Below are positions 316 through 47,859 of a stretch of 51,559 nucleotides of DNA, in pieces (within the stretch, counting starts at the first letter, position 1; every line of letters starts with the position of its first letter). The notes under the pieces are model-generated. The model ran no database searches. It saw only the letters and a list, made by a program, of their open reading frames with translations, and had not been told where the DNA came from. The DNA is from Acidobacteriota bacterium (lineage in GTDB: Bacteria > Acidobacteriota > Terriglobia > Acidiferrales > UBA7541). Where the stretch lies: NCBI GenBank assembly GCA_021780215.1, contig JAJXZD010000165.1, positions 1 through 51,559 of the forward strand, given 5' to 3'. Position numbers and translations under genes: made by a program.

Positions 316-1893
316 TCACCATTTCGGAATGCCGCAGGTGAAATTGGCGGCGTCGTACGGATCGCCGCCTTTGTAAATCGCAGCCTGGGGGTACGGGCAG
401 ACGGGATGCGTGCGGTCAACGACCCCTCCAACGCGGTGTGAAGCAATAATTTTGTCCGGAGGAACATTCGTCTCGCGCCACTTCTCGATCACATCCTGTG
501 CATTGAACGCGCCGGGGCCGCGCACATCAAACCCGGAGCACATCCCCTCTCCGGGCACCATAAACAAGCGGGCGAAATCTTGCGTCTTGCCCGGGCCGCC
601 CATCGCTGCCTGGACATGCTGGTAGTAATCCACGAGGCCGCCTGGAGGGATCGCCGCTTCCTGCCAGGATTGGTACATGAGCAATTTTCCCCCGTGCTCC
701 TTGAAGGGACGCAGATTCGGATCGGTCATGTTCACCATCACCCCGACCCTCTCATCCGCAAGGCGCGTGTCGCGCGACACATCGAACGTATGCCAATCCC
801 AGCCCGCATTTTGGAAGACGACGGTCGCAAAGAAATCCTTGTTAATCGCCATCGGCTCCGGACCGCCGAGCATCATCCCCCAATCCAATTCGCTGCCCGG
901 CTCGAGCCCCGGATAGATCTGGGTGCCGTCGTTGAATCTGGCCCCGGCGTAAACGAGTCGGGCTGTCTGCACCTGCGCCGGCGTGAGGCATGATGCATAG
1001 TCTTCCTTGGCGGGGCACTGGATGCTGGCCGGATCGAAATGGCAGAGCATCGGATTCTCGATGATGCCGTCGCGCACGCCGTCGAGACCGTCGCACGCGT
1101 CGAGCACCGCCCGGTTAATAGCAGGATACTTGCTCGGCGGAATATAGCCGGGCGCCTTCACCCCGTCTTTCAGCGATACCCAGGAGAGGTAGACCGAGAC
1201 TGCCTGAAGATGCGTGATGTCGTACGCGGGATCGCCGGCGGCGATTCCGTCATAGTCTGTCGGATACTTCTGCGCCTCGGTCAGCGCCTGATTGCCGCCC
1301 TCGTGGCAACTGCTCCAGAAAGACAACCTCGGGGCCTTGCCGTAATACGCGCGAATAATCTGCTTCGCGGCTACCGTCATCTCGTGAACCGCGCGGTAAC
1401 CCCAATCAGTCACTTTCTCCGGATGCCCGATGGCCCACGGCGGGAGCGCGCCCGTGGCCTCCGCATCGGCATGGCCGGTGTCGGTGGATGCCGTCGCGTA
1501 GCCGCGCGCGACTTCCCGCGACATCCCGCCATAGCTGATGGCTCCCACGAACCCGGGATTGCCGGCTCCAAAGTACTTGCCGTTCCAATGCGCGGTGGTG
1601 GGCAGCCAGACCTCAAACGAAATGTGCGAATCGCTCGTCGGCGCGGCAAATCCCGCCACGCGGCAAAACGGCACCGATACCTTCAGCCCCGCCGGCGTGC
1701 CGTACTTCCCGGGCAAGCTGGGAACCTCGAAATCCGGCGGCGGCGCGATGGATTTCGCCATCGTTATTGTGACACTTGGAATTTTGAGGGTCGCCAGGCT
1801 TTCACACGACTGTTGGGCAGCCGCCGGCATCGAAGCGAGCACGAAGCCCGCCAGGAAAATCAAAAGCAAATATCGATACGAATGACGCCTCAC
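316..1893 (-). CDS. Secreted tannase/feruloyl-esterase-family protein, catalytic residues replaced (copy 1)
   Basis: The protein has 525 residues, with an N-terminal signal peptide ending near AAA-Q (about residue 26). Family landmarks are present: the EAQKYPTDYDGI stretch, the Ca-binding-like CDGLDGVRDG, and the C-terminal RTHPVCPYP and DAANFTC. The family uses a CS-D-HC arrangement. Here the nucleophile elbow is SSCHEGG (194-200), with His197 where Ser belongs. The Asp site in SWQEAAI is Glu412, and the usual GHC is GMC (Met451-Cys452). Both disulfide cysteines remain. The start is GTG at 1893, because it aligns with the paralogue and follows GGGGAGGA; the open frame further upstream is not coding. 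An ordinary ester hydrolase is doubtful; the fold is secure. Confidence 0.88.
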   Translation of the reverse strand: MRRHSYRYLLLIFLAGFVLASMPAAAQQSCESLATLKIPSVTITMAKSIAPPPDFEVPSLPGKYGTPAGLKVSVPFCRVAGFAAPTSDSHISFEVWLPTTAHWNGKYFGAGNPGFVGAISYGGMSREVARGYATASTDTGHADAEATGALPPWAIGHPEKVTDWGYRAVHEMTVAAKQIIRAYYGKAPRLSFWSSCHEGGNQALTEAQKYPTDYDGIAAGDPAYDITHLQAVSVYLSWVSLKDGVKAPGYIPPSKYPAINRAVLDACDGLDGVRDGIIENPMLCHFDPASIQCPAKEDYASCLTPAQVQTARLVYAGARFNDGTQIYPGLEPGSELDWGMMLGGPEPMAINKDFFATVVFQNAGWDWHTFDVSRDTRLADERVGVMVNMTDPNLRPFKEHGGKLLMYQSWQEAAIPPGGLVDYYQHVQAAMGGPGKTQDFARLFMVPGEGMCSGFDVRGPGAFNAQDVIEKWRETNVPPDKIIASHRVGGVVDRTHPVCPYPQAAIYKGGDPYDAANFTCGIPKW

Positions 1894-2103
1894 GTGGGTC
1901 CTCCCCTTTTGCCGTCGTTGATCGCCGTGCTCGCCTGTAAATTCTCGACTCCTGGTTCGCGGCCATGCTCTATATACCGGAGAGCGGCCCCACTCTGCAC
2001 GTTCTCTTTGCATCCAGCCCGTTTCCGCCGAGCAAAGCCCCCAAGACATTGCCTCGTTTTCACCTAGGCTTCTGGAGCGTCGCACAGCTCTTAGGGCCTT
2101 GGC

Positions 2104-3687
2104 TCACCACTTCGGAATGCCGCAGGTGAAATTGGCGGCGTCATACGGGCTGCCGCTGCCGCTGTAAATAGCCACTTTCGGCCACGCACATGCCGGATGC
2201 GTGCGATCCACGACGCCATTCACCTTGTGCGCGTTCTCGATCCTGTCGGGCGCGACGCCGGTTTCTCGCCACTTCTCGATCACGTCCAGGGCATTAAACG
2301 TGCTGCCCGCTCCCATGCCGAATCCCGGACACATCCCCATGCCCGGAATCATGAACAGGCGCAAGAAACCGGTCGTTTCTTTTAAGCCGCCCATCTTTGT
2401 AACAACGCTGTTGTAGTAATCGAGCGCTCCTCGCGGCGGAATGATTGCTTCGTCCCATGATTCGTAGAGCAGCAGTTTTCCGCCGTGCCTCTTGAACGGA
2501 TCCAGATTCGGATCGGTCGAATCGACGTATTTGCCCACCCGCTCCTCGGCCAGTTTCGTATCCCGCGACACATCAAACGTTCGGAAATCCCAGCTTTCGT
2601 CGTTGAGGACCATGCTTTTGAAAAAACCCGTGCTGATGCTCAGAGGCTCGGGACCCGCAGCCATCAGACCCCATCCAAGTTCGCTTCCCGGGTCGAAGCC
2701 GGGATAAATCTGCTTCCCATCCGCGAACTTTGGACCCGCGTAGATCAGTTTTGCCGTGTGTACTTGCGCTGGAGTCAGGCAAGACGGCAAATCTTCCTTG
2801 GCGGGGCAGGCAATCGTCGCTGGGTCAAAGTGGCAGAGCATCGGATTCTCGATAAATCCATCGCGCACGCCATCGAGCGCATCGCATTTGTCCAGCGCTG
2901 CCCGATGAATCACCGCGTATTTGCTCGGCGGAATATAGCTGGCTGCTTTTACTCCGTCCTTCAAGGACAGCCACGTGATGTATTCGGAAACAGCCTGCAA
3001 ATGCGTTATGTAGTATGCGGGGTCGCCAGCGGCGATGGCATCGTAGTCCGCCGGGTATTTTTGCGCCTCGGTCAGCGCCTGGTTTCCGCCTTCGTGACAA
3101 CTGCTCCAGAACGAATATTTCTCCGGCCGGCCATAATATGCACGAATCAGCGCTTTGGCCGCCACGGCCGTTTCATGGACTGCGCGATAGCCCCAGTCCG
3201 CGACCTTTTCCGGATGCCCGATGGCCCAGGCCGAAGGCGCTTCGCTCGTCGCGCCGATGTCCGAGTGGCCCGTGTCCGTCGAAGCCGCAACGTCGCCCTT
3301 CTCCACCTGCCGGACCAAGCCTGCGTAGCTGATCTCGCCGATAAACCCGGGATTGCCAATGCCTACATATTTGCCCGACCAATTCGCCGCCACCGGCAGC
3401 CACACCTCAAATGAGATATGCGAATCGCTCGTCGGTGTCGCGTAACCCGCCACCCGGCAGAACGGCACGTGCACCAGCAGACCGTTCGGCGTCCCGAAGC
3501 GTCCGGGGGTGCTGGGCACCTCAAAAGCTGGCGGCGCCTGGATCGACCTTGCCAGTGTGATCGTTACGCCGGGAATCTTCAGGGTCGCCAAACTTTCACA
3601 CGACTGTTGGGCAGCCGCGGGCCTCGAAGCAAGCACAATGCCCGCCAGGAAAATCAAAAGCAAATAACGAAACGAATGATGCGTCAC
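2104..3687 (-). CDS. Secreted tannase/feruloyl-esterase-family protein, catalytic residues replaced (copy 2)
   Basis: The 527-residue paralogue of the neighbouring gene is highly similar over its full length, including the signal peptide (LLLIFLAGIVLAS...AAAQ). The same three substitutions occur: SSCHEGG with His198 at the nucleophile position, SWDEAII with Glu413 at the Asp position, and GMC (Met452-Cys453) in place of GHC. The linking cysteines, the Ca-site-like CDALDGVRDG and the C-terminal DAANFTCGIPKW are conserved. The start is GTG at 3687 with GGGGAGGAC just upstream. Because both copies keep intact frames and identical substitutions, the altered active site is unlikely to be random decay. 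The protein is probably periplasmic or extracellular, acting on phenolic esters or binding them. Confidence 0.88.
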   Translation of the reverse strand: MTHHSFRYLLLIFLAGIVLASRPAAAQQSCESLATLKIPGVTITLARSIQAPPAFEVPSTPGRFGTPNGLLVHVPFCRVAGYATPTSDSHISFEVWLPVAANWSGKYVGIGNPGFIGEISYAGLVRQVEKGDVAASTDTGHSDIGATSEAPSAWAIGHPEKVADWGYRAVHETAVAAKALIRAYYGRPEKYSFWSSCHEGGNQALTEAQKYPADYDAIAAGDPAYYITHLQAVSEYITWLSLKDGVKAASYIPPSKYAVIHRAALDKCDALDGVRDGFIENPMLCHFDPATIACPAKEDLPSCLTPAQVHTAKLIYAGPKFADGKQIYPGFDPGSELGWGLMAAGPEPLSISTGFFKSMVLNDESWDFRTFDVSRDTKLAEERVGKYVDSTDPNLDPFKRHGGKLLLYESWDEAIIPPRGALDYYNSVVTKMGGLKETTGFLRLFMIPGMGMCPGFGMGAGSTFNALDVIEKWRETGVAPDRIENAHKVNGVVDRTHPACAWPKVAIYSGSGSPYDAANFTCGIPKW

Positions 3688-3889: not shown

Positions 3890-3974
3890 GCCCGGGTGGC
3901 GGAATGGCATACGCGGGGGACTTAAAATCCCCTGTCCCTCACGGGACGTGTGGGTTCGACCCCCACCCCGGGCA
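3890..3974 (+). tRNA. tRNA-Leu (anticodon UAA)
   Basis: The acceptor stem GCCCGGG (3890-3896) pairs with CCCGGGC (3967-3973) and is followed by discriminator A. The anticodon stem GGGGA/TCCCC encloses loop CTTAAAA with anticodon TAA at 3923-3925. A long variable arm (TGTCCCTCACGGGACG) and the T-arm GTGGGTTCGACCCCCAC fit a class II leucine tRNA. CCA is not encoded. Confidence 0.95.
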
Positions 3975-4042
3975 CTCTTGTCCATGTTCACGCTGAATAT
4001 TCGAGCCGTTGCGCGGCCCTGTCCTTGAGGTATCATCATCAC

Positions 4043-4693
4043 ATGGCGGAGAACGGCCGCAATAATCTAAGACGTCCCTTCACACACTGGATTGGCGAGG
4101 GAGGAAGCTGGCTGCTGCACCACGTGGTGAGCGGGCTGGCGGCGACCGGCATCACTCCCAACATGTTCACCTACCTGGGTCTGGTGGTGAATTCCGTGGC
4201 CGCGGCGTGTCTTGCCATGGGGCGATTCCATCAGGCGGCTGCCATTTTGTTTTTGGCCGGCTTTCTCGACATGGCGGACGGGCAGGTGGCCCGCCGCGTC
4301 GGCCGCGTCACAGCTTTTGGCGCGTTCCTCGATTCCACGCTCGATCGCTATTCCGATCTGGGCCTCTATATGGGGCTGGTGGTCTATTACACGATGATTG
4401 GGCGCCCGTTCTACATGGCGCTGGCGGCGGTGGCAATGGCCAGCTCGTTCATGGTCAGCTATTCGCGGGCGCGCGCGGAATCGCTGATTCCATCCTGCAA
4501 GGTGGGCTTCATGGAGAGGCCAGAACGGCTGGTGCTGTTGCTGATTGGCGGGACTTTTAACCGGATGGCACAGGTTCTCTGGGTGATTGCGACGCTCTCC
4601 ACGCTGACTGTGATTCACCGCGTAGTCTATACCTGGCAAGAACTTCGTGCCGGCCGTTCCCTGCCCCAGGCCGAGGCGATCCTGCCACGCTAG
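4043..4693 (+). CDS. CDP-alcohol phosphatidyltransferase
   Basis: This 216-residue integral membrane enzyme would transfer a phosphatidyl group from CDP-diacylglycerol to an alcohol acceptor such as glycerol-3-phosphate or an inositol phosphate. The complete family signature D-x2-DG-x2-AR-x8-G-x3-D-x3-D is visible at residues 76-101 (D76, D79, G80, A83, R84, G93, D97, D101). I chose the ATG at 4043; the frame stays open upstream into the tRNA, which is not credible coding. The gene converges on the lipid operon, and the two TAG stops overlap at 4690-4693. The acceptor alcohol cannot be read from the sequence. Confidence 0.85.
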   Translation: MAENGRNNLRRPFTHWIGEGGSWLLHHVVSGLAATGITPNMFTYLGLVVNSVAAACLAMGRFHQAAAILFLAGFLDMADGQVARRVGRVTAFGAFLDSTLDRYSDLGLYMGLVVYYTMIGRPFYMALAAVAMASSFMVSYSRARAESLIPSCKVGFMERPERLVLLLIGGTFNRMAQVLWVIATLSTLTVIHRVVYTWQELRAGRSLPQAEAILPR

Positions 4694-5433
4694 GCTTTTC
4701 GGCTCTTTTTCAGCGACTCTTCCACCGGCCCGGAAACAATTTCCTGCACGCGCTGCCGCAGCGCTTCCGCGCCGTCCCGGCCCGTCGGCGTCACGTCAAT
4801 CGGATCGTGCACAAAGACGATGATTTTGCCCGGATGGAGCATCCAGTGGCCGGTCCGGAAAAATTCAAACGAGCCCACCATGCTGACCGGAACGAGCGGC
4901 ACGCCCAGCCTTTGCGCGATACTGAAAATTCCCTTCTTGAACGGGCGCAGGTGGCCGTCGCGCGTGCGCGATCCTTCGGCAAAGGCTATCAGGCTGATGC
5001 CGGAATCAATCGCCGCCTTGGCCCGCTCGGCCATGATCCGCAGCCCCTCGCGATTGGGGCTATCCGGCACGGGAATGTTGCCGAACCGGCTCATAAGCCA
5101 GCCATAGATTGGAATCTTGAAATGCGATTCGAGTTCGAAGCCCCGGAGAAATTGCGGAATTGCCGCGTAGACCACGAACGGGTCGAAGATGTTCACATGA
5201 TTGCTGATGAAGAGGCAGGTTTGCGCAGGGTCGAACCGCGGAGAGCAGCGAACCTCCACGCGTGCGCCCGCCAGCCGCAGCACATTGCGGCAAAACAGGC
5301 GCTGCAGCCAGTCGTCCTTGCGCGGGTCCACGAATGTCCCCAGGACTATCAGGAACGTGCAGACCACGGCAAAATGCACTCCGCTGACAGCCCATAGCAC
5401 AAGCGAACGAATGGTCAGCCAAGCCCGCTTCAT
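4690..5433 (-). CDS. 1-acyl-sn-glycerol-3-phosphate acyltransferase-like (PlsC family)
   Basis: This 247-residue protein has an N-terminal hydrophobic helix (about 10-35). Acyltransferase motif I is NHVNIFD (H79, D84), the substrate-binding motif is EGSRTRDG (from E153), and VPVSMVG follows as motif IV. It probably acylates a lysophosphatidate-like acceptor at the inner membrane using acyl-CoA or acyl-ACP. The start ATG at 5433 overlaps the stop of the lipid kinase gene as ATGA, which implies translational coupling. It is the last gene of the leftward lipid operon. The long open frame upstream of this start is a shadow of the kinase gene. Confidence 0.88.
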   Translation of the reverse strand: MKRAWLTIRSLVLWAVSGVHFAVVCTFLIVLGTFVDPRKDDWLQRLFCRNVLRLAGARVEVRCSPRFDPAQTCLFISNHVNIFDPFVVYAAIPQFLRGFELESHFKIPIYGWLMSRFGNIPVPDSPNREGLRIMAERAKAAIDSGISLIAFAEGSRTRDGHLRPFKKGIFSIAQRLGVPLVPVSMVGSFEFFRTGHWMLHPGKIIVFVHDPIDVTPTGRDGAEALRQRVQEIVSGPVEESLKKSRKA

Positions 5434-6332
5434 ACGATGACGTCGAGCGCCCCCGGAACAATCTCCAGCGAGCGGATTTGCAGATGAAGAATCTCGCCAT
5501 CCACCAAGGCATTCACCGGCCCGGCGAGATCGAACTCCACGCGCTGTGAGGCCGCCCGCGAGGCGCGCGGATGCTTCTGATGCGTGCCCGTAAACAGCCG
5601 CGGAAACAGCCACAGCAGGCGAAGCCGCCCGACCGGGCCCCAGCGGACATATTCGATCTGCCCATCGGTAGGATCGGCTTCCGGCGCAATCATCATCTTC
5701 CCACCTGTGAATTTGCTGTTGCTGAAGGCGAGGAAAAGGCACGGCCGCCGGTCCCATGCAGAGGCCGCAGCCAAACGGTGCGGGAAGGCCTCCGGCCGCA
5801 GCCTCGCCAGGCGTCCGAGCACAGCCAGGACGTAGCCCATCTCTCCCCAGCGCTTGAAGCGCCGGTTCGCCAGCTCGCCGGCATCGGCCGGAAAACCCAG
5901 ACTGAGCAGATTCATATAATAGAGTTCGCCGCCGGCATGCCGCAGCCGTATCAGGTCGCAGGCACGGCGCCGGCCGCTCCGCAGCGCTTCGACCGCGTGG
6001 GCAGAACCCTCGGTGGTGAAATCGCGCAGGAACGAATTGCCGGTACCCAGAGGTAGAAAACCCAGCGCGGGCCGTTCCGCGCCGCACGCCGCGGGAAAAA
6101 GTCCGTTCACAATCTCAAAGGAGGTCCCGTCGCCGCCCACGGCAAGAAAATTGCGAAAACCGCGCGAGTAGGCATCTGCCGCGAGAGCTGAAGATTCGCC
6201 CGGGCGCATGGTTTGCGCGATCTCGATATCCAACGAGCCTTCCTGACGCAGGCGCGCCAGCGCGGCCGGGGCCAGCTGTCCACAACGGCCATTCCCCGCT
6301 GCGGGATTCAAGATGGCAAAGAAGCGCTGCAT
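5430..6332 (-). CDS. Diacylglycerol-kinase-family lipid kinase (YegS/DgkB-like)
   Basis: The product has 300 residues and opens with a nucleotide-binding strand and NPAAGNGR (9-16), followed by the catalytic-domain signature GGDGT (66-70). FLPLGTGNSFLRD follows as the second ATP/lipid-site motif. The family phosphorylates diacylglycerol, sphingoid or related lipid alcohols. Its stop overlaps the start of the PlsC-like gene and it lies 40 bp downstream of the AMP-ligase, so it shares their transcript. In this operon it could phosphorylate the glycerolipid or fatty-alcohol-containing intermediate made upstream; that is inference. No strong ribosome binding site precedes the ATG. Confidence 0.87.
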   Translation of the reverse strand: MQRFFAILNPAAGNGRCGQLAPAALARLRQEGSLDIEIAQTMRPGESSALAADAYSRGFRNFLAVGGDGTSFEIVNGLFPAACGAERPALGFLPLGTGNSFLRDFTTEGSAHAVEALRSGRRRACDLIRLRHAGGELYYMNLLSLGFPADAGELANRRFKRWGEMGYVLAVLGRLARLRPEAFPHRLAAASAWDRRPCLFLAFSNSKFTGGKMMIAPEADPTDGQIEYVRWGPVGRLRLLWLFPRLFTGTHQKHPRASRAASQRVEFDLAGPVNALVDGEILHLQIRSLEIVPGALDVIV

Positions 6333-6372
6333 TTCAAATGCCCCGTTCGGCTCGATGGTCGCTGCCGGAACG

Positions 6373-8082
6373 TCACAGCGTTACCATCTGATCCCGGCTC
6401 GCGGCTTGCCGGATCTGTTCCGCCAGCTCCATGCGCTTGATTTTCATGGAAGCGGTCCGTGGAAAATCGCGGTCCCAGACGAGATAGCCGCTAATCCTCT
6501 TGTAATTCAGCAAACGGCGATTGCGCTCCGCAATGTCGGCCGCCACTTCCTCGGAAAGCGCCCCGCCGCCTTCCGGATGCACAACGAGAACTAGTTGTTC
6601 ACCGATCATGGTGAGCGCCGGCCAAAGGTAGTTGGCCGCAAAGACGCAAAATTCTTTGGCCGCCAGCCCCTCGAACACCGCTTCGATGTCCTCGGGGTAG
6701 ATATTCTTCCCTTCCTCGGTGACGATCATGTTCTTCTTGCGGCCCAACAGCTGCAAATGGCCTTTCGCGTCCAAACGGCCCAGATCGCCGGTCATCAGCC
6801 AGCCGTCCACAATCGTCTCCGCGGTCATCTCCGGATCGTCGAGGTAATGCGACATCACTGTTTTGCCGCGGACAGCCACTTCCCCGACTCCCTCCGCGTC
6901 CGGATCGGCGATGCGGACTTCGACGCCCGGCAGGGGCCTGCCAACCGTGTCCGCGCGGAAGGGTTTGAAATCATTCAGCGTGATGACTGTGCCGGCCTCG
7001 GTGCAGCCGTAGCCGTTGCCGACGGGAATGCCGAGGTCGTAGAAGAATTGCAAGGTGGACGCCTCGGTGAACGCTCCGCCGACGAACAGCGCGCGAAGTT
7101 CGCCGCCAAATCCTTCATGGACCTGCCGCAGCAAGGCGCGGCTCATCTTGAGCCTCGGTCTTCTGCGCGTGACCAGGCGGTTCATGCTGATAAGCGCGCC
7201 CAACATCTGGCGGCGACCGCGAGGGAGTTCCGCAAAGCGCTCTCGCAGGCCGCGCTCCAGAATCTTGAGCAGCATCGGCACAACCGTCATGTAGCTGATC
7301 TTGTATTTGCGGAAGGCGTCGCGGATATATTCGGGGCGCAGCGTGCGCAAGTGCACCACTGTGGCACCACAAGTGAACGGCCCGATAAAGCCGACCATGA
7401 AATCAATCGCGTGGTTGGTAGGGAGGATGCTCAGGTAGCGCATCCCCGGCGCAAAGGGAAACAGCGCCGTAAGCGCCCGGCACTGCTCCAGATAGTTTTC
7501 GTGTGTCAGCACGCAGCCCTTCGGGCGGCCGCCGGTGCCTGACGAGTAGACGATACAGGCAGGATCTTCCCGCCGGCGCGGAACGAAGATCGGATGGCGG
7601 TTGCCGCGAAACTCCTCCCAGCGCCGCGCTCCCTCCAGCGCGGCTCCCACGGGCGCTTCGGTGACGAGCACCAGGCGCGGCTTGCGCTCCCCGAACCCCT
7701 CGCTTTGCGCGAGCGCCCTCCAAATATGGTATTCGACGATCAGCACCTCGGCCCGCGAGTGCGCCAGAAGCTGAAGCTGCTCCGCGAATGGCAGCTTGTA
7801 ATCGAGCGGCACCAGCACGCCACCGGAATAGAACACCGCGTAGGCCGAAATCAGCCATTTCGACTGATTCGTCATCAGAATCGCGGCCCGCGAGTCCTTT
7901 TGAAAGCCGGCTTCCTGCAGCGCGCGGGCGAGGGGCAGCGCGGCTTCCCGGAACTGGCGGTAGGTAAGGCGCGCCTTCTCGCGGTCCCGGTCCGACTCTA
8001 TGAGGCATGTCTCCCCGGGCCAGCGAGCCAGCCCGGCGCGCAGCGCTTCACCGAGGCAGTTGTACTGGCGGAGGTCCAGCAT
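6373..8082 (-). CDS. AMP-dependent acyl ligase (acyl-CoA/acyl-ACP synthetase)
   Basis: This 569-residue ANL-superfamily enzyme activates a carboxylate as acyl-AMP and transfers it to a thiol. The P-loop is [11 protein letters not shown] (179-189), with Gly where the second Thr is usual. [10 protein letters not shown] (A5), TGDLG (A7) and the C-terminal [10 protein letters not shown] (catalytic Lys, A10) are all present. The ATG overlaps the stop of the acyl-carrier-protein gene (TGATG), suggesting that the carrier protein is its partner. The substrate is probably a fatty acid, given the neighbours; an aryl acid is not excluded. Confidence 0.87.
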
Positions 8083-8324
8083 CAGAGGCGCGATTGGATG
8101 CGTTCGGCGAGCGTGCGGAAATCGCTCACGCCCTGCAATTCGTAGTCCGGCAACTCGATGCCAAAATGCTGCTCGAGGCGCGTGAGCAGGCCGAGGGCCT
8201 GCAGACTGTTGATGCCGAGCTTCTGGAAAAAGTCGTCGCCCGGCTGGAGACTTTCCCGCGGCACGTGAAAATGCTCCGCCGCGAGATTCAGTATTTCTTC
8301 GATGGTGGCGTCGAGTGTGGGCAT
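8082..8324 (-). CDS. Acyl carrier protein
   Basis: This small acidic protein has 80 residues and the four-helix ACP pattern. The phosphopantetheine attachment site is LGINSLQAL, with Ser40 in an NSL variant of the usual DSL. The ATG at 8324 gives normal ACP length; the frame runs open to 8564 but the added sequence is Arg/Cys-rich and implausible. It sits between the crotonase and AMP-ligase genes, so it probably carries the operon's acyl intermediate rather than serving general fatty acid synthesis, where acpP normally neighbours fabD, fabF or fabG. Confidence 0.9.
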
Positions 8325-8397
8325 CTTTTTCAGTGTAACCGACTTCCCCGCCTCCTTACAGCAGCCAACTGCGCGCCGCCGCGGGCCTCGCCTGCCG

Positions 8398-9201
8398 TTA
8401 GGGGAGGTAGGGCAGCGGGTCCTTCGATTCGGCGAACTTTTGCAGACCCTCCTGGACCGCCGGGCGCATGAGCAGGCTGCAGAAGATTTCGATCTCCCGG
8501 CGCAGATCCTCCTGCGGAACCGGCTTGATGAACTTCTTTGCGGCAATGGCGGTCTCGCGGTCAAATTTCTTCAATTGCGCCGCCGTTATCCTGGCCACGC
8601 GGAGCGCATCCCCTTCGGCAACCACCTGGCTGACCAGCCCCGCAGCGTGCGCGCGCGCAGCACCAATGCTCCGCCCGGTCAGCAGCAGGTCCCGCACCAT
8701 GGCGTTGCCGAGATCGCGCTTGAGCCGTGGAATGCCGCCGAATCCCGGAATCAATCCCAGCCGCAGCTCGGGAAAGCAGAAACGCGCCATCTTCCCGGCA
8801 ATAATCAGGTCGCAAGCCAGGGCCAGCTCGAATCCTCCGCCGAAAACGACTCCTTCAACAGCCGCCATAGTGGTGAACGGCGCGGCATCCAGCGCGTTCA
8901 GCACACGGTGAATCCGCTCGAGAAAATCCCGAACACCGGCAACGCGCTCCTCGAGCGAAAGGCCGTGCGAACGGCTGTACAGTTCGCGCAAATCCGCTCC
9001 CGCGCAAAAGCCCTCGCGGCGGGCGCTCGAAATGATGACGGCGTGCGCTTCCACCCGGAGCGCACCGAGCGCATCGGCAAACTTTTCGAGTTCCGGCAGC
9101 GTCTCCGAGCCGATTTCGTTGCATGGAGCACGGTCCAGCACCAGCTCAATCGCACCTCCCACCACGCTCCAGGAGAGCGTCTTCCCGCGGAAACTGTTCA
9201 T
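8398..9201 (-). CDS. Enoyl-CoA hydratase/isomerase family protein
   Basis: This 267-residue crotonase-fold protein has the oxyanion-hole segment FCAGADLREL (65-74) and the second segment GGGFELALACD. Both hydratase glutamates are present, Glu125 in GGGFEL and Glu145 in FPELRLGLIPG, so hydration or dehydration of an enoyl/3-hydroxyacyl thioester is plausible. The start overlaps the stop of the second AMP-ligase as ATGA; the next gene, ACP, begins 73 bp further on. Within this operon it may introduce or remove a hydroxyl on a chain bound to CoA or ACP. Confidence 0.88.
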   Translation of the reverse strand: MNSFRGKTLSWSVVGGAIELVLDRAPCNEIGSETLPELEKFADALGALRVEAHAVIISSARREGFCAGADLRELYSRSHGLSLEERVAGVRDFLERIHRVLNALDAAPFTTMAAVEGVVFGGGFELALACDLIIAGKMARFCFPELRLGLIPGFGGIPRLKRDLGNAMVRDLLLTGRSIGAARAHAAGLVSQVVAEGDALRVARITAAQLKKFDRETAIAAKKFIKPVPQEDLRREIEIFCSLLMRPAVQEGLQKFAESKDPLPYLP

Positions 9202-10880
9202 GCGGGCCTCTTGTGATACATCGCGTCAATTTCCGCGGCATAGCGCGCGGCGATGGCTTCGCGTTTCATCTTTCCCAGAGTGGTGAGCAGGCCGTTTTCC
9301 GGCGTGAACAGTTCGTGCAGCACATGAAACGCGCGAATCTGCTTGTAATGCGGGGCCGAGGCGTTGTGCGCATCAATGGCCGACTGGATGCGTGTGCGAG
9401 CCTCTTCCGGTCCGTTCCCGTTCGCGCCGGCAGCCACAACCAGAGCGGCAAGGTAGCTGCGCTGGTTGCCGAGCAGCACCACCTGCCGGACGTCCGGGAG
9501 GTCCGCAGCGAGTTCGTGCTCGATCGGCTCCGGCGCAACGTTGTGCCCGGAGTTCAATACAATCAGATTTTTCAGCCGCCCCGTAATCCGCCAGTTCCCT
9601 TCCGTGTCAGCTTCGCCCTGATCGCCCGTGTGGAACCATCCCCCCGCGAGCGCCTCTGCCGTGGCCGCGGGGCGCCGCCAGTAGCCGGGAAACACATTCG
9701 GGCCACGCACCAGGATTTCGCCATTCTCTGCCGTCCGCATCTCCACACCGGGAATGGCTGGACCCACGCGCCCGGGAACGGGACGGCGCGGATCATCCAT
9801 GGTGCAGATGGCTGTCGTTTCCGTCAGGCCATACACCTGCAGCACGCGGATGCCGAGCATGTCGTAAAACAGCTGCGTCTCCACCGCCAGCGGCGCCGAA
9901 CCGCAAATTAGCGCCTTCAGGTTCGGCCCGATGCTCCGCCGAATCGCCGGAAACAACACCCTCCCCGCAAGCCAGAGGCTGGCGGAGCCGGCCACGCTTC
10001 GGCCCCCTTGAAACCGGCGAAGGTGCTCCTGGCGGGCGCTCGCATAGAGCGATGCCACCAGCCCGCCGCGTCCTGCGAGCGACTCTTCCACGCGTCGCCG
10101 GACACGCTCGAGGAACATCGGGACGTTGACAAAGTAGTCCGGCTGCGCCAGCTTCAGCTCCTCGGCGATCTTGGTCAGATCCGTCGATAGCGTCAGCACG
10201 GCGCCGCGCGCGAGCGAGGTCCACAGGAGGATGCGTGCCGCCGCAAAGCAGAAGGGCGCATACTGAAATACCTGATCCGGCTCGCGCCGCCCACCCATCA
10301 GCAAGTCCAGCCGGGAGCTCGTACAGCCGAGCATGAAGGTGATGTTCCCGGCGTTCAGGACCACGCCCTTGGGTTCGCCCGAGGTTCCCGACGTGTAGAT
10401 GATGGTCGATGCATCGTGGTCCGCGTGGTGAAAGGGCTGGGCGGTGCCAGCCGGCGTGGGCGCTCGCTCTGCGTCTGTGAATACTTCGCTGAACAAAACG
10501 GTGCGTGCAGCGTTTTCCTCTCGGTCCGGGATATGGGTAGCCATATCCGCGTCCGCGCAGAAGACCAGCGATGGTTCCGAGTCAGCCAGCACGGCGGAGA
10601 TTTCCGCGGCCACCTGTCGCGGGTCCAGCGGGACGACGATCAGGCCCTCCGCCAGTATCGCCAAATCCATCGCCACCCAGCGGATGCTGTTCGGTCCATA
10701 GAGGACGCAGCGGCTGCCCTTCTCTAAGCCGCTTCTGGCGAGAAATTCCCTCGCTTGCTGCACCAACCCCAGCAGTCCTCCGCCGGTCGCAGCGGCAAAC
10801 ATCCCGTCGCGCACTTCGCGGACGACCGGCTCCGCGGCCGACTGGCTGAGGCGGTCGAAAATACGCTCGAGAAAGGTCAT
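9198..10880 (-). CDS. AMP-dependent fatty-acyl ligase, second copy
   Basis: The 560-residue ANL enzyme has YTSGTSGEPKG as P-loop, YGLTETTAI as A5, TGDQGEAD as A7, GRLKNLIVL as A8 and a C-terminal LGKMKR carrying the A10 lysine. It is not closely similar to the ligase at 6373, so the two probably differ in substrate or acceptor (CoA versus ACP). I chose ATG at 10880, which overlaps the upstream stop as ATGA; an open extension to 10919 lies inside the preceding gene. Long-chain acyl-CoA synthetases of the AMP-binding COG1022 type are the closest match I recognise. Confidence 0.86.
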   Translation of the reverse strand: MTFLERIFDRLSQSAAEPVVREVRDGMFAAATGGGLLGLVQQAREFLARSGLEKGSRCVLYGPNSIRWVAMDLAILAEGLIVVPLDPRQVAAEISAVLADSEPSLVFCADADMATHIPDREENAARTVLFSEVFTDAERAPTPAGTAQPFHHADHDASTIIYTSGTSGEPKGVVLNAGNITFMLGCTSSRLDLLMGGRREPDQVFQYAPFCFAAARILLWTSLARGAVLTLSTDLTKIAEELKLAQPDYFVNVPMFLERVRRRVEESLAGRGGLVASLYASARQEHLRRFQGGRSVAGSASLWLAGRVLFPAIRRSIGPNLKALICGSAPLAVETQLFYDMLGIRVLQVYGLTETTAICTMDDPRRPVPGRVGPAIPGVEMRTAENGEILVRGPNVFPGYWRRPAATAEALAGGWFHTGDQGEADTEGNWRITGRLKNLIVLNSGHNVAPEPIEHELAADLPDVRQVVLLGNQRSYLAALVVAAGANGNGPEEARTRIQSAIDAHNASAPHYKQIRAFHVLHELFTPENGLLTTLGKMKREAIAARYAAEIDAMYHKRPA

Positions 10881-12307
10881 CCGGCCACTACTCCGCTGTG
10901 CTGTTCGAGCAAACCGCACAGTAGCGGGCTGAGCTCGGGGAGATAATCCTCCCAGCCCAGCACGCCGGTGCGCACCGGAAATTCGGGATAGCGTCGGGCC
11001 ACATGCTCTTCAAAATAGACGCCCATGGCGGCCATCATTCGCAGATTAAAAGCCACCACGCTCCCCATGGCATGGCGGATTCCCTCCTCGTCGGCATCGA
11101 GCGCATGCAGTGCGGCGACGATCTTCTCGGCGAGGTCCGCATCCTCCACGCCCATCACCAAGTGGTCGTGGCCGCGCTGCCGCATCAGATTGCGGATGCG
11201 CTCGTCCATGGTGACGCCGGCAGAGGGTACGCCCGCCGGCATCGAGGTCACGATGGCATGAAAACGCGAGGAGAGAATCCGGTCGCAGGCACGCAGGATG
11301 CTCACCAACTCGTACATATTGAGCCGATCGGAGGAAAAGATGGGCGCGCCGCCGATTCGTTCTGCCACTCGTTCGCACGCGTCGCGGTCGAGCATCTCCA
11401 TGCCGATGATCACGGGAAACACCCGCCGCTCCTGGCGGTACTGCGCTACCCCCCCGGCCAATGCGGCAATGTACCTTTCGTAAGCCGAATCCACCGCGCG
11501 CCCGGACCGATGAAAATAGATCGTGCGGTAATGGCTCTTCCGGTAGGCCCCGGCAACGGCACGTGCCAACCATTTTCCGAGCGATGGCTTCACCGGCCAC
11601 CAGAATGGATTAATCGGACACACCGCCAGGATCGGCGTCCGGCCATCCCAGCCAGCCTCACGGAGTGCTCGTTGGGCATAATCCGGCCCCAGCGGCTCGA
11701 ACGTCCACGCCGTATCGGTGCCCAGTTCGGTGGCGATGCCCAGCTTGCCGAGAATCTCCTGCGACTCCGGGTTGCGCGTGATGACCAGCGAGCTCCGGCA
11801 GTAGCGGCGGCACATCTTTTGCAGCAGTGGATCCATGGCACCCGCCTCGCCGCCATAGGCTACGCTCAGCTTGTTCTGCGCGGAGGCGATGCCCAGCGCG
11901 CCAATCATCATAGCCGTCAAGGCGCTGGCGAACTTGCTCTTGAACATCGAGCCTTCGCAGGCTACCACGCCGTGATGCCTCCGCACTTCCGAGTGCAAAA
12001 AAGGCGGAAAGACGTCTGGCAGCCGCACCTGTTCCGCGTCGCCGAAATATCCTCGCGTCAGTGAAAAATCCTGCGACATCACGCTCAGCGCAACCCGCTC
12101 GGCCCCTAGAATGCGCCGCACCTGCCGCAGGATCTCCTCGACGCGAATGTCGGACCCGGTATTCCGCGCGCCGTTGTAGCCCGCGAGCAGCAGCCGCAGC
12201 TTTTGTCCGGGCGTCCAAGCCTCCCCCGCTCCGAGCATCCATTCCACCTTGTTCCATTCGATCAGGGCGCTGACCCACGCCTCGATCACGGCGTCCATAT
12301 CTATCAT
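10877..12307 (-). CDS. Polysaccharide pyruvyl transferase-family protein
   Basis: The 476-residue protein has [13 protein letters not shown] near residue 43, like the N-terminal G(Y)xGxxNxGD segment of the CsaB/WcaK pyruvyltransferase family, and SSRFHAIV, like the family's (S)xRLHxxI motif. The fold resembles GT-B glycosyltransferases, and members usually add ketal-pyruvate to cell-surface sugars from phosphoenolpyruvate. Its presence inside a lipid operon, with ATGA overlaps on both sides, suggests that a sugar or head group is also modified. No signal peptide is visible. The family assignment is good, but the chemistry in this operon is unknown. Confidence 0.72.
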
Positions 12308-13449
12308 CGGGACGGCTCCTGGGCCGCATTGGCGGCGGCCGCGGGCCAGCTGCGATAGGGATAGCTGAAATGATTCGCCCGGCTATACCGCAGCAGCTGA
12401 TAGCAGTAGGTCGAAAAGGGAGCGGGAGCCCGGCCCATTTCCCTGGCCACGCGCCGGTTGTCAAAGACCGTATCCCAGACAAGGTACGGCAAGAATACCT
12501 TCAGGAGCGTTGCAAAGCCGCCAATTTTCCCTGCGCCTCCCGCCAGCGCCTCGATCATTTTCGAGGTGACTTTTTCGAGCCGCGGTGCAAACACCGGACC
12601 GCGTTTGCCCTGCGCCTTTGCCAGCGCGTCCGTGATCTGCGCAAATGTCTCCGAGCCGGTCCCGGACGACAGGTGATAAATTTCATGCGCCGGCTGCACT
12701 TTCTGATGCAGGGCTGCGATGGCACCGGCCACGTAGTCCACCGGGACAATGTCAATGCGCGCCTCGGCCCGGAACGGAAGAGCGCGAAGCCCCGCAAGAA
12801 ACACGAAGGCGCGGACCATATCGAACTGGTTGGTTTCGGCCCGCCGGCTGTCGCCGAGCACGATGCTCGGGCGAAAGATGGTGCGCGGGACGTCCGGAAG
12901 AAGCTGGCGGACCATGTGCTCACAGAATTTCTTGGTCCGCGCGTAGGGATCGTAATCGGAACGATTCCAGTCAATGGCGGCGTCTTCCTCGACCACTTCG
13001 CCAAAGCGATGGCCTGCCACGGCCACGGTGCTCACATGGCTGAAGCGCCGCAGGCCATGCGCGTCCCGCGCGCGCTGGGCGAGTTGGATGACCTCCAGCG
13101 TTCCCCGCAAGTTCACGTTGAGGCAGCTCTTCTCCGACTTGCGATTGAGCGAAGCCGCGCAGTGAATCACCGAATCGGTGGAGTGCACCAGTGCGCGGTA
13201 TTCGTCTCCGGCGAGGCCGAGATATAAATCCGTGATATCTCCGCGAAAAATGCGGATGCGTGCCCGCAGACACCCTTCGAAGGCGGGAAAATCCATGTGC
13301 AGTTGGAGCGCGCGCCAGAGGCGCTCCTGCGCCTCAGGAATATCGCGCGCGCGCACCAGCAGGTTCAACGGCTCGGCAGAATCCGCGAGCAGGTTGGCCG
13401 CCACATGCGCGCCGATGTAGCCGGTGCACCCGGTCAGAAATATAGCCAC
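12304..13449 (-). CDS. Extended SDR / thioester-reductase-like NAD(P)-binding protein
   Basis: This 381-residue protein has the Rossmann motif GCTGYIG (7-13), a Ser at about 140 in HVST and the catalytic YARTK (Y169, K173). The overall layout matches the NAD_binding_4 (male-sterility/thioester reductase) branch of extended SDRs. Such enzymes reduce acyl thioesters or act on sugar nucleotides. The stop overlaps the pyruvyl-transferase-like gene as ATGA, and the start lies 12 bp after the acyl-reductase stop. Two reductases in sequence could take an acyl thioester to aldehyde and then alcohol, or this one may act on the sugar moiety. Confidence 0.82.
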
Positions 13450-13461
13450 GGTTTTTGCGTG

Positions 13462-15819
13462 TTAGGGCGCCGCTCCCAGCGATCCAGCAGCGCTCGCCCC
13501 GGCGCGCCTGTCCACCTCCGGACGGCGCCGCGGGCGAACCTCAAGCGGGCGACCCTCGATGAGAGGATAGCACCACTTTCGCAGCGCCGGAATGTGGACA
13601 TTGATCCAGTAGTCCCACCAATCGACCGACCGCGCGTCGTAGCCGAACCGGGCGCGCTCCTCGGGCACCAGCGCCGCGTTCAGGCGCTCGATATTGCCCG
13701 CGTCAAACACGTGGTCGTTGTAAAGGATGAATGGTTCAAACAGGGTAATCAACTTGATCACCTTCTCGAGTTCCCGCTCCTGCCGCGCCAGCGGCGGGCG
13801 CACAAACGGAATCGGCATCACGGACCGGTTGATGATCTGCACGATCATCTTCTGCGCCGGAGCCGAGAGTTTGTCATAGCGCCCTTTGGAAACCGGAATG
13901 GCGTCGAATTTCAGCCGCAGACGGTGCTGAAGCCCATTCTGCGCCCGGTAGAACTTTCGGTGGCCCAGACCGGTGAGTTCAATCGAACGCCGCATGTTGC
14001 ACGGGTTCACGGCCGAGGTGGCCAGGTGGTAGAGACGCTCGTGGCGGCGTTCGACGAGGGCCGCGGAGACCAGCGTCATACCCCGGGAGACCAGGTCCAC
14101 GGGAATCAGGTCCAGGCACTTGCTCGCGTTGGTCGGAAGCTGCCGGAAGAATGTCCCCAACAGATAGGAGAGCGATGCGGAGGTGTTGACCCCCTCGTTC
14201 CAGCCAAGAAACGGGTGCGCGACCGATGATTCGACGATGGATGGACGCACAACGGCAATCGCGGCGCCCGGCGTGGCGTCCAGATAATCGCGAATGAGCG
14301 ATTCGGACAGGCTTTTGGTGAACGTATAGGTGTTGGGCCAGCCGAGCTCATTGGCGCGGCGCCTGCCGCTATCGGTCAGCGTGCGGCGCAGCCAGCGGAC
14401 GCGGCTCTTGCGGATCTGATTCTCGAGTGCTGCTCCGTGTAAGTCCTTCGCGGCATGCTCTTTGCCGATGGCTTCCTGGCGTATCTCCTCGGCGACTTCC
14501 GCGGAGTCCGCGCGCGCCTCGGTCTCCCGGACCAGCGCCTCGAGCGATTGCCATTCTCTTGTCGCCACAAAATTCGGGCCTCCGCGGGGCGAATAATTCC
14601 GCGGTAGCTCCTCCAGAATGCGTCCGTCGCGCTGCCCGATGGCATAGCAGGTGGAAAGATGCAGCAGCGCGGCTCGCCGGCACCGGCCGAGAAAATCGAG
14701 CAGATACGCGGTCGAGCGCACGTTCATGGCCAGCGCGTCGCGAAGATCCGGGTTGAAGTCGGTCAACCCTCCGCTATTGACAACCAGATCCAGCGAACCC
14801 GCAATTCGCGAGGCCACCTCCTCGGGCAGTCCCAGGTTCGGCTGGCTCACGTCTCCGGAAAGGACTTCCACGCGGTCGCGCAGGAAATTGCCGAGCCCGT
14901 CTCCGTGCCGGGCCGCCAGCGCATCGAACACCGGCGATTCTTCGATCATCCGGTCGAAGCGCTCGCGGGCAGTTGCCGAGCGCCGTCCGCGAATCAGCAG
15001 ATAGAAGCGCCCAATCTCCGGCAGCTCGCTCAATAGCGAGGCCAGCCATACTTTGCCTATAAATCCGGTGCCTCCGATCAGCAATATCTGCTTTCCGCGC
15101 AGCGACTCCCGCACCGAAAGCGGTACTGGCTTTGCCGGACTGCCGGAAAACACAACGGGAACGGAGACCTTTGCCGCCGGCCGCTCCGCCGGGCGAATTG
15201 CACCGTCGAGGGTTTCCGGGCGCCCGGCGAAGCCAAGATCGCGGAGCAGTTGCTCTCGTGTCACCCTCCCGTCGGGACGGTTCCCACGGAGGCGGCCCAG
15301 CGGGCCGCGGGGACGAATTACGGGATCCAGCAATCGGCCGGTGGCAAGACCGTCGCGAAAGTCGAGCCGGTTGGAGACAATCCGGTGCGCGCCGAGGTAT
15401 TTCGCCAGGGGGCGCATGATGTGGTCGAGCCCCTGGCTGACCAGCACGATGTCCGCGCCAGCGGCCAGTGCCTCGCGGAGCTTTTCCACGCCGCGCGGCT
15501 TCAGGCGCCCCTTGAGATGATATTCAAAGAACTCCTCGCCCAGCAGGTCCAGGCGGTCCCGGCTCACCCCGCGCAGGACGGTGTGGAGCACGCGGGTGGC
15601 GGCCACGCGACCCACGATATAGAGCAGCGGGCGGGCCATTGCTAGCAGGCCCATGCCCCCGCGGCGCGTCCACCGCTCGAGAAAGCTCTGCGCATTCCAG
15701 GCGAAAAAACCCACCGGCCGCACTGCGGTCAGATTCAGCAGGCTGCCTTCCACGCGCCAGAAAACCGGCGCGCGCGAGTTATCGGGAGGATGCGGCACGT
15801 TGGAACCGGATGAGGACAT
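13462..15819 (-). CDS. Fatty-acyl reductase with N-terminal degenerate HAD domain
   Basis: The protein has 785 residues from ATG at 15819 (a TTG at 15834 is possible). The N-terminal 1-210 looks like a HAD-IB phosphatase: FWRVEGSLL (20-28) aligns with [19 protein letters not shown] with motif II, and RDGLATGRL is also typical. The nucleophile Asp is Arg22 and the general acid is Glu24, so catalysis by this domain is unlikely. The C-terminal part is a fatty-acyl-CoA reductase (FAR): GGTGFIG (249-255), YTFTK (Y498, K502), and a sterile-type C-terminal domain ending [16 protein letters not shown]. It would reduce acyl-CoA or acyl-ACP to fatty alcohol. It is the first gene of the operon. Confidence 0.85.
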
Positions 15820-38814: not shown

Positions 38815-40176
38815 CTACTCTTTGGGGGCGATGTATTCCAGGCTTTGGCGAGCGGCGGAAACAGTGCGGTCAATGTCGTCCTCGGTGTGCGCGGCCGAGA
38901 TGAATAGCGCCTCAAATTGCGACGGCGGCAGGAAAATCCCCCGGCGGAGCATCTCACGGAAGAACGCAGCGAATCGCGCGGTGTCTGCCTTTTTCGCGCC
39001 CGCAAAGTCCCGAACCGGCCCCGACGAGAAAAAAAGCGTCAGCAGGGAGCCTGTGGCGTTCACTTCCCCGGGGATGCCCGTATCCCTCAGCGCCTTTCGC
39101 AGGCCCTCAGACAGGCGAAGCGATTTTGCGCCGAGCGCGTCATAGAAGCGGGGAGCCTCGAGCCTCGGCAGCGTGGTCAGGCCGGCGCGCATTGCCAGCG
39201 GATTGCCGGAAAGAGTTCCGGCCTGATAGACGGGCCCCAGTGGGGCGATGGACTCCATGATCTCGCGGCGCCCACCGTAGGCCGCCACAGGCAGCCCTCC
39301 ACCAATGATCTTTCCGAGCACGGTCAGGTCTGGCCGGACAGAAAAGATGCCCTGGGCTCCCCCGTAAGCCAGCCGAAATCCCGTAATGACCTCATCGAAG
39401 ATCAGCAGCGCCCCATCGCGGCTGGTGATCCGCCGGAGCGAATCGAGGAAGCCGGGGGCGGGCGGCACAACTCCCATATTGGCGGCGACCGGCTCGACAA
39501 TGACAGCGGCAATTTTCCCCGCGTGCCGCGCAAAGATCTTCTCGACGGCTGCAACATCGTTGTACGGCGCGTTGAGCGTTAACTGCGCCAGCGCCGCGGG
39601 AACTCCGGGACTCGCCGATATTCCCAGCGTGGCAAGGCCGGAGCCGGCCTCCACCAGGAAGCTGTCCGCATGGCCGTGATAGCCGCCCTCGAATTTCAAA
39701 ATGAAATCGCGTCCGGTAAAACCTCGCGCGGCGCGAATTGCGGACATGGCCGCTTCGGTCCCTGAGCTGACGAAACGGATGCGCTCAATGGAGGGGATGG
39801 CGCACGCGATGCGCTCGCCGAGATCAATCTCGAGGGGAGACGTCATGCCGTAGCTCGTGCCGCGCCGGGCCTGGTTCGCAACGGCCGAGACGACCTTCGG
39901 ATCGGCATGGCCCAAAATCAGCGCGCCCCACGAGCAGACGTAATCGATGTATTCGCGGCCGTCCACATCCCAGAGCCGCGAACCGCGGGCCCGGTCAATC
40001 ACCAGCGGCGCTCCGCCCACGGCGCGAAAAGCGCGCACCGGGCTGTTCACGCCGCCGACGAGAATTTTCTGTGCGCGGGCAAAAAGCCGGGCCGAGCGGT
40101 GGCCATTTTCCGCGGCGGACGCCCGGCGGGGGCGCCGCAACGGCTTTTTTCGGGAAGGTTTGCGGGAGATAGCCAT
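38815..40176 (-). CDS. hemL: Glutamate-1-semialdehyde 2,1-aminomutase
   Basis: The PLP enzyme converts glutamate-1-semialdehyde to 5-aminolevulinate, the second step of the C5 pathway. The 453-residue protein shows GGVNSPVRAF near residue 41, SSGTEAAMSA, FEGGYHGHAD, the PLP aspartate motif IFDEVITGFR and the Schiff-base Lys289 in VLGKIIGGGLP. The N-terminal 20 residues (RKPSRKKPLRRPRR) form an unusual basic extension. It is the last gene of the ccsA-hemACDBL operon, 15 bp after hemB. Its substrate comes from HemA in the same operon. Confidence 0.97.
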   Translation of the reverse strand: MAISRKPSRKKPLRRPRRASAAENGHRSARLFARAQKILVGGVNSPVRAFRAVGGAPLVIDRARGSRLWDVDGREYIDYVCSWGALILGHADPKVVSAVANQARRGTSYGMTSPLEIDLGERIACAIPSIERIRFVSSGTEAAMSAIRAARGFTGRDFILKFEGGYHGHADSFLVEAGSGLATLGISASPGVPAALAQLTLNAPYNDVAAVEKIFARHAGKIAAVIVEPVAANMGVVPPAPGFLDSLRRITSRDGALLIFDEVITGFRLAYGGAQGIFSVRPDLTVLGKIIGGGLPVAAYGGRREIMESIAPLGPVYQAGTLSGNPLAMRAGLTTLPRLEAPRFYDALGAKSLRLSEGLRKALRDTGIPGEVNATGSLLTLFFSSGPVRDFAGAKKADTARFAAFFREMLRRGIFLPPSQFEALFISAAHTEDDIDRTVSAARQSLEYIAPKE

Positions 40177-40191
40177 AGAAATGCGAGGACG

Positions 40192-41993: not shown

Positions 41994-42033
41994 GTCAATC
42001 GGCCGGCCGGCGAGACGACGGCCGCAAACCCGC

Positions 42034-45151: not shown

Positions 45152-45179
45152 GTAATGCGCCGCTCTCCTATCTCGCACA

Positions 45180-45185
45180 ATTATA
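45180..45185 (-). promoter_or_regulatory. Perfect -10 element for the ccsA-hem operon
   Basis: The minus strand reads TATAAT at 45185-45180, 29 bp upstream of the ccsA ATG, which would give a short leader of about 20 bases. No good -35 hexamer lies 16-18 bp further upstream, so the assignment rests on the -10 and its position. Confidence 0.45.
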
Positions 45186-45233
45186 ACGCCTAATGGCGTT
45201 CGCCGGTTGCCTTCCCTCGCCAGAATTCGCGTT

Positions 45234-47845: not shown

Positions 47846-47859
47846 CGAGCCAACCGAGA

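Follow-up and report, generated by a model that had tools for sequence, protein, structure and literature searches.

A conserved acidobacterial operon that has half of its parts in common with myxobacterial elb and probably makes an unusual ether or fatty-alcohol phospholipid

Genes at the locus and their products

The window, that is, the whole stretch of 51,559 nucleotides that was analysed, comes from a soil acidobacterium and carries a block of nine genes on its minus strand at 4690-15819, met at its end by a convergent gene on the plus strand. The block had been proposed by a sequence-only reading of this DNA; all nine genes were confirmed and could be assigned to named families:

13462-15819, minus strand: FAR, fatty acyl-CoA/ACP reductase (PF12710; PF07993, 5.8e-51; PF03015)
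12304-13449, minus strand: SDR, NAD_binding_4 thioester-reductase-like dehydrogenase (PF07993, 3.2e-45)
10877-12307, minus strand: PVT, polysaccharide-pyruvyltransferase family (PF04230, 4.4e-10)
9198-10880, minus strand: AMPL1, acyl-CoA synthetase/AMP ligase, FadD11-like (PF00501, PF23562)
8398-9201, minus strand: ECH, crotonase / enoyl-thioester hydratase (PF00378, 1.2e-39)
8082-8324, minus strand: ACP, acyl carrier protein (PF00550, 1.7e-12)
6373-8082, minus strand: AMPL2, acyl-AMP ligase (PF00501, 6.7e-71)
5430-6332, minus strand: DGK, YegS/BmrU-type lipid kinase (PF00781, PF19279)
4690-5433, minus strand: PlsC, 1-acylglycerol-phosphate acyltransferase family (PF01553, 7.1e-19)
4043-4693, plus strand: CDP-alcohol phosphatidyltransferase, convergent (PF01066, 4.8e-18)

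Four junctions (SDR/PVT, PVT/AMPL1, AMPL1/ECH and DGK/PlsC) are 4-bp ATGA overlaps, and the start of AMPL2 overlaps the stop of ACP in a TGATG; the remaining three leave gaps of 12, 73 and 40 bp. We therefore count five overlapping junctions where six had been claimed. Promoter-like sites were not in excess over shuffled sequences.

The FAR consists of an N-terminal pseudo-HAD (ElbB-like) domain, NAD_binding_4 and the Sterile C-terminal domain, and has a solved relative in the fatty acyl-CoA reductase 7eoz (2.8e-50). The name pseudo-HAD, given to it earlier, is borne out: the window has WRVEGS where the DxDGT nucleophile motif would stand, and so do about 97% of 85 orthologues. The other eight proteins have active-site motifs that are conserved among their orthologues. 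The SDR retains GxTGYIG and YxxxK and scores under the cut-off for both TIGR01746 and PRK07201; AMPL1 keeps its P-loop and A10 lysine, and its best NCBIfam, NF038343, is also below the cut-off. Both catalytic Glu of ECH (in GGGFELA and FPELRLG) are invariant (n = 79), as is the Ser of the ACP phosphopantetheine site G-I-[DN]-S-L (n = 55). The ligase motifs of AMPL2 are conserved, and it is the probable acyl-ACP loader. Finally, the GGDGT motif is invariant in DGK and the HX4D motif conserved in PlsC. Families and motifs agree with the steps suggested earlier: activation of an acyl chain, its loading onto a carrier, reduction, phosphorylation and acylation.

PVT is a polysaccharide-pyruvyltransferase-family protein with a GT-B-like fold in its model, and a putative transferase. 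The structure model (pLDDT 87) matches GT-B-type structures with a TM of about 0.5, the fold comparison returning generic GT-B matches only; a search of solved structures with the sequence gave no match. PVT resembles CsaB and Pvg1p in its PF04230 family, its SxRxH motif and its GT-B-like fold. On the other hand, it reaches 61 bits against the CsaB profile TIGR03609 (cut-off 213) and is placed in a lipid operon. The pyruvate or sugar modification suggested by the earlier reading may fit this fold and these motifs, which do not point to a particular substrate. R348, within the SxRxH motif, and H350 are invariant; for Pvg1p, PEP binding via two arginines has been proposed (PMC4872226). We found no papers in a literature search pairing pyruvyltransferase with ether lipids.

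The first ATG of the convergent gene lies at 4043, and an upstream GTG at 3950 falls within a tRNA-Leu gene. Its product scores 156 bits against NF040950, archaetidylinositol phosphate synthase (cut-off 180), has 6h5a and 5d91 as solved relatives and is found in the same convergent place in 15 relatives. Judged by similarity, this phosphatidyltransferase is closest to inositol-phosphate lipid synthases and is a candidate headgroup enzyme. Genes for inositol lipids adjoin the operon in two ways that are independent of each other. The window's own genome encodes inositol-1-phosphate synthase, as do 53 of 61 genomes of the class; since the enzyme is near-universal there, its presence says little alone.

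Conservation of the gene order

The block had also been taken for a dedicated unit, with freely varying neighbours as the point to check. The neighbours do not vary freely: of 24 loci taken from the window's own genus, family, order and class, with protein identities of roughly 50-85%, 20 have the complete order FAR-SDR-PVT-AMPL1-ECH-ACP-AMPL2-DGK-PlsC, which supports a dedicated unit. Up to DGK it is kept in 53 of the best 80 named loci, all of which are MAGs; in the named loci from Terriglobales, DGK is not followed by an adjacent PlsC. The operon also occurs in other acidobacterial classes, sometimes as two separate blocks, and chance adjacency is thus ruled out by synteny. Relatives of PVT numbered 310 in a scan across 85,000 species genomes. 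Genes inserted in single loci (by appearance an S9-peptidase-like protein and a CocE-like hydrolase) were judged unrelated. Neither sugar-nucleotide nor flippase genes are conserved along with the operon across the relatives' loci. A literature search for this gene set together with Acidobacteria returned no papers.

Comparison with known ether-lipid pathways

The reference for our comparison was the ether-lipid biosynthesis (elb) cluster, elbA-E, of Myxococcus xanthus (VEPE/AEPE, MIBiG BGC0000871), with acidobacterial ElbD homologues of published layout used in place of the M. xanthus ElbD. Other acidobacterial classes have ElbD-type proteins, 1440-1513 aa long, in which the domains follow as FAR-ligase-ACP-acyltransferase. 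At two of these loci (L096 and L098) the order is HAD, LarA-like protein, ElbD and epimerase, which matches the described elbB-elbC-elbD-elbE (PMC9131029), and a DGK lies beside ElbD or elb genes in several others (L097, L103, L104, L110 and L202-L204). The operon has half its parts in common with this machinery. Both have FAR, acyl ligase, ACP and AGPAT-type acyltransferase functions, an ElbB-like HAD and an NAD(P)-dependent reductase, and DGK is a neighbour in acidobacterial elb clusters. In the operon, however, the functions sit on separate proteins, the HAD is fused to FAR and catalytically dead, and PVT, the second ligase AMPL1, ECH and the NAD_binding_4 SDR are without elb counterpart. 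The earlier reading could not match the combination to a named pathway. A partial match can be made: elb corresponds in the FAR, HAD, ligase/ACP/acyltransferase and DGK part.

When 61 relatives are searched with ElbD, its FAR half aligns with the operon FAR at 34-41% identity across some 540 residues. In operon-bearing genomes the operon FAR is the best match of the acidobacterial ElbD FAR (39% in the window's own genome), and ElbB aligns with its N-terminus. The FAR tree, whose base is not settled and which included no non-elb bacterial FAR, places the operon sequences amid those of elb and not outside them. AMPL2 is, by E-value, its own genome's best match to the ElbD ligase domain, whereas in the ligase tree it forms a separate long branch outside ElbD and other ligase-acyltransferase fusions and is not the sister of ElbD. 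The best Pfam family of the SDR is NAD_binding_4 and that of the L096 ElbE is Epimerase, i.e. they belong to different subfamilies. The LarA-like ElbC is a LarAH14/15/16-family protein in L096, with Lar_N in both L096 and L098; a profile search of the operon proteins found no counterpart. None of the 61 relatives has a fused four-domain ElbD. The layout, the lack of an ElbC and the position of AMPL2 in the ligase tree rule out an ordinary elb cluster.

NRPS-like elbD-like clusters of sponge Acidobacteriota/Poribacteria and Antarctic Vicinamibacterales have a FAR-ligase-T-AGPAT arrangement and have been compared with VEPE; in the passages of these papers available to us, they have one fused core gene with other enzymes flanking it, whereas the operon has separate genes, and those passages hold no description of the nine-gene operon (PMC9426513, PMC8692599).

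We identified no ether-forming enzyme; in particular, none of the AGPS, CarF or PlsA/Ger type is encoded in the operon. FAD_binding_4, the AGPS-related domain, has 12 matches elsewhere in the own genome. A plasmalogen desaturase step of the CarF/PEDS1 type was rejected: PF10520 has no match in the own genome and occurs in 1 of the 61 relatives. PlsA/PlsR and Ger, proposed to form bacterial ether lipids by ester-to-ether reduction, Acidobacteria included, have no homologue in the operon, and DUF2229, the PlsA/Ger domain, has no match in the own genome, which is 92.8% complete. Nor do operon and PlsA/Ger exclude each other: this domain occurs in 9 of 21 good-quality operon carriers and 7 of 17 non-carriers, showing no correlation.

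A proposed route and its alternatives

Since the order is kept across much of the phylum and half of the parts are shared with elb, the product is probably an unusual fatty-alcohol or ether phospholipid. The explanation that we favour, at about even confidence, is an elb-like pathway in dissociated form, with one function per protein, which starts from fatty acids and ends in a fatty-alcohol or alkyl-ether phospholipid, perhaps with an inositol headgroup. We infer the directions of its reactions as follows. AMPL2 would activate a fatty acid and load it onto ACP, and FAR would use NAD(P)H to reduce this thioester to a fatty alcohol (or aldehyde); the inert HAD domain of FAR is probably a scaffold. 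The alkyl chain would be joined to a glycerol unit, DGK would phosphorylate the alkyl(acyl)glycerol, and PlsC would fill the free position to give an alkyl-acyl phosphatidic acid. After CDP-activation by housekeeping enzymes, the phosphatidyltransferase encoded next to the operon could attach a headgroup, probably inositol phosphate. A second chain may be prepared or modified by AMPL1, ECH and SDR, and PVT presumably transfers some group.

FAR-family enzymes typically yield primary alcohols. The alcohol might be esterified as in waxes, or serve as an anchor, with DGK and PlsC feeding ordinary phospholipid synthesis and no ether bond being made. The solved relative 7eoz fits this, as does the lack of an AGPS, CarF or PlsA/Ger enzyme in the operon and of CarF and DUF2229 in the genome. 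But no wax synthase was found in the operon, and FAR is of the elb type and is conserved together with DGK and PlsC; we regard this as unlikely. It is quite unlikely that the product is a pyruvylated or glycosylated surface glycophospholipid, for which the other genes build the anchor and PVT modifies the headgroup, by ketal pyruvate from PEP or by GT-B glycosyl transfer. The similarity of PVT to PF04230 and CsaB, its GT-B-like model, the invariant R348 with the arginines proposed for Pvg1p, and the nearby inositol-type headgroup gene speak for it; the position of PVT in mid-block between SDR and AMPL1 and the lack of a co-conserved sugar-nucleotide or flippase gene speak against it.

Acidobacteria make iso-diabolic acid and glycerol ethers thereof with incompletely known enzymes (PMC13274423, PMC10087280); the operon might supply ether bonds or chain modification for such membrane-spanning, brGDGT-type lipids of soil Acidobacteria. 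Three loci (L049, L050 and L227) do have a radical-SAM gene inside the operon or next to it, but this gene is also present in operon-free genomes and absent from the window's own, for which we rejected it as a core part. With a PlsA/Ger-type domain that does not track the operon either, we consider this highly unlikely.

Published ether genes cover only some of the acidobacterial producers, with elb in some subdivision 4 genomes and PlsA/Ger-like genes elsewhere. Ether-lipid phenotypes have been published for 46 cultured acidobacterial strains (cited in PMC13274423). Acidobacteria are major soil bacteria, and they are the cultured organisms known to make the branched ether lipids that serve as palaeothermometers. 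For uncultured Terriglobia the operon offers a specific and conserved candidate for the synthesis of ether or fatty-alcohol lipids, and since its functions lie on separate, individually expressible proteins, it would make the ElbD reaction easier to study. PVT, as a GT-B enzyme acting on a fatty-alcohol or glycerol intermediate, might even provide a missing ether- or ketal-forming step and thereby define a previously unrecognised pathway. We hold this to be improbable; if true, it would mean a new class of inositol phospholipids from hundreds of uncultured soil species.

Layout and integrity of the operon

All nine minus-strand genes, and the families that the sequence-only reading had named for them, were found in the window. 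In the order of transcription they are:

15819-13462, minus strand: FAR, fatty acyl-CoA/ACP reductase (pseudo-HAD, NAD_binding_4, Sterile)
13449-12304, minus strand: SDR
12307-10877, minus strand: PVT, polysaccharide-pyruvyltransferase-family protein
10880-9198, minus strand: AMPL1, AMP ligase
9201-8398, minus strand: ECH, crotonase
8324-8082, minus strand: ACP
8082-6373, minus strand: AMPL2, AMP ligase
6332-5430, minus strand: DGK, lipid kinase
5433-4690, minus strand: PlsC

The eight junctions comprise four ATGA overlaps of 4 bp, a single TGATG overlap of 1 bp, and three gaps of 12, 73 and 40 bp; there are thus five overlaps, and not six as had been claimed. Key residues are nearly or fully invariant among 18 to 97 orthologues of SDR, PVT, AMPL1 and AMPL2, as are both Glu of ECH, the Ser of ACP, GGDGT of DGK and HX4D of PlsC. 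Judged by their sequences, these eight proteins show no sign of decay.

PVT matches PF04230, with a CsaB match below the cut-off. Its predicted structure (pLDDT 87) has a GT-B-like fold and resembles PDB entries only distantly (TM about 0.5, UDP-GlcNAc epimerases and GT-B transferases); its sequence had no match among solved structures. The SxRxH arginine is invariant among the orthologues; for Pvg1p, PEP binding via two arginines has been proposed (PMC4872226).

Elsewhere in the window we see two tandem secreted tannase/feruloyl-esterase-like proteins, alike by eye (316-3687), and what appears from its sequence to be a tetrapyrrole (heme) biosynthesis cluster (38818-49248).

Conservation across the phylum

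Relatives of PVT occur in 36 of 61 genomes spanning genus to class. The sequence-only reading had proposed conserved synteny as a check, and the full order is indeed kept: in 20 of the 24 regions fetched around PVT relatives the complete set of nine is collinear with the window, and the proteins are roughly 50-85% identical. As for the other four, contig ends cut the operon in L031 and L040, the order breaks after AMPL1 in L049, and L053 is without PlsC. A scan of genome_contigs gave 310 PVT relatives, of which the best 80 are all from MAGs labelled Acidobacteriaceae, Acidobacteriales, Acidobacteria/Acidobacteriota (some gp1), Terriglobia/Terriglobales or Ca. Sulfotelmatobacter; 53 of these 80 have the run from FAR to DGK in order.

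Among 297 genomes sampled across the phylum, 10 had PVT matches, other classes among them. There, the block is intact in locus L224 and runs at least as far as AMPL2 in L225 and L226. Genomes G115 and G179 have it in two pieces, FAR-SDR-PVT-AMPL1 (followed or not by ECH) and ACP-AMPL2-DGK-PlsC. Apart from these, locus L184 is inverted at the border between AMPL1 and ECH. Such arrangements argue that the operon is an old functional unit built from two sub-blocks.

Two PVT relatives stand further apart, with 38% (L229 9488-11104) and 29% (L230 9278-10582) identity to the PVT of the window. The other eight families are missing from their surroundings, and the two may be of use in working out what the PVT family does.

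Relation to the elb clusters

In Myxococcus (PMC9131029), elbA-E encode an NAD-dependent epimerase family protein, the HAD protein ElbB, ElbC, ElbD (FAR, acyl-CoA synthetase, ACP and AGPAT-like acyltransferase parts) and ElbE, again of the epimerase family; most alkyl and vinyl ether lipids disappear when elbD is mutated. Other reports place elbD/VEPE-like clusters in sponge Acidobacteriota and Antarctic Vicinamibacterales (PMC9426513, PMC8692599) and elb in some subdivision 4 genomes (PMC10087280).

Querying the phylum with AMPL2 returned, from other acidobacterial classes, fused proteins of 1440-1513 aa with the domains FAR-ligase-ACP-acyltransferase (nine-family HMMs and Pfam). The gene order in L096 and L098 is HAD, LarA-like protein, ElbD, epimerase, and in L097, L103, L104 and L110 a DGK is next to ElbD or close to it. 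The LarA-like proteins (L096 12458-14053, L098 7396-9006) occupy the ElbC position, and that of L096 fits the NCBIfam LarAH14/15/16 hydroxyacid isomerase models above cut-off, a possible clue to elb chemistry. In the window's own class, L202 8736-19000 and L203 1733-7761 hold an unfused elb-like cluster of HAD, a protein that from its sequence looks LarA-like, FAR, epimerase and DGK, possibly an intermediate between elb and the nine-gene operon. L202 additionally has an ACP-ligase protein and a gene resembling PlsY.

The best FAR match of the L096 ElbD in operon-bearing genomes is the operon FAR (34-41% over about 540 residues); the same query found no four-domain ElbD fusion in the 61 relatives. 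In a maximum-likelihood tree whose FARs came from the operon and from elb-type systems alone, and whose base is unresolved, operon FARs, two ElbD groups and unfused FARs form neighbouring branches, with SDRs far off. By the match and the tree, the operon FAR belongs with the elb-type enzymes. Its N-terminus can be aligned to ElbB, but about 97% of 85 orthologues have WRVEGS in place of the HAD nucleophile motif FxDxDGT: the HAD domain is kept but inactive. On the other hand, AMPL2 sits on a long branch of its own, apart from the ligase domains of ElbD and from other fusions of ligase and acyltransferase, so that an elb ancestry of the complete system is only a possibility. The operon also differs in being without ElbC, in having an SDR of NAD_binding_4 type where ElbE is of Epimerase type, and in keeping as separate genes the functions fused in ElbD.

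Possible lipid chemistry and headgroup

Neither the PlsA/Ger domain DUF2229 nor CarF was found in the window's own genome (G000, a 2.97-Mb draft, 92.8% complete). DUF2229 does not track with the operon (9/21 good-quality carriers versus 7/17 non-carriers), and the own genome has 12 FAD_binding_4 matches that might include an AGPS. A radical-SAM gene lies within or beside the operon at three loci from two classes (L049 11827-13476, L050 5645-7312, L227 1136-2812; the L049 and L227 copies are 74-77% identical to that of L050). It is not in the own genome and is present also in operon-free genomes; the enzyme could work on the same lipid chains as the operon.

In the window and 15 relatives, a CDP-alcohol phosphatidyltransferase is convergent to PlsC. 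Of the models compared, those for archaetidylinositol phosphate synthase and phosphatidylinositol phosphate synthase give it the highest scores, short of both cut-offs; among solved structures, synthases of inositol type are closest to it. Upstream of FAR, the gene in L045, L046 and L094/L112 is myo-inositol-1-phosphate synthase. Since these are two independent neighbours of inositol type, gene context favours an inositol headgroup; however, the latter synthase occurs in 53 of the 61 relatives, which weakens the argument, and the convergent gene may be under separate control from the operon. Directly upstream of the phosphatidyltransferase is tRNA-Leu(taa) (3890-3975); because its listed GTG start (3950) falls within this tRNA, ATG 4043 is the more likely start.

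In summary, this lipid operon is of ancient origin and is kept widely among Acidobacteriota. Its core is of elb type, and PVT, AMPL1, ECH and the NAD_binding_4 SDR are four additional parts. The most likely reading of its predicted product, which we would give an even chance, is a phospholipid derived from a fatty alcohol, probably with an alkyl ether bond and possibly with inositol as headgroup.
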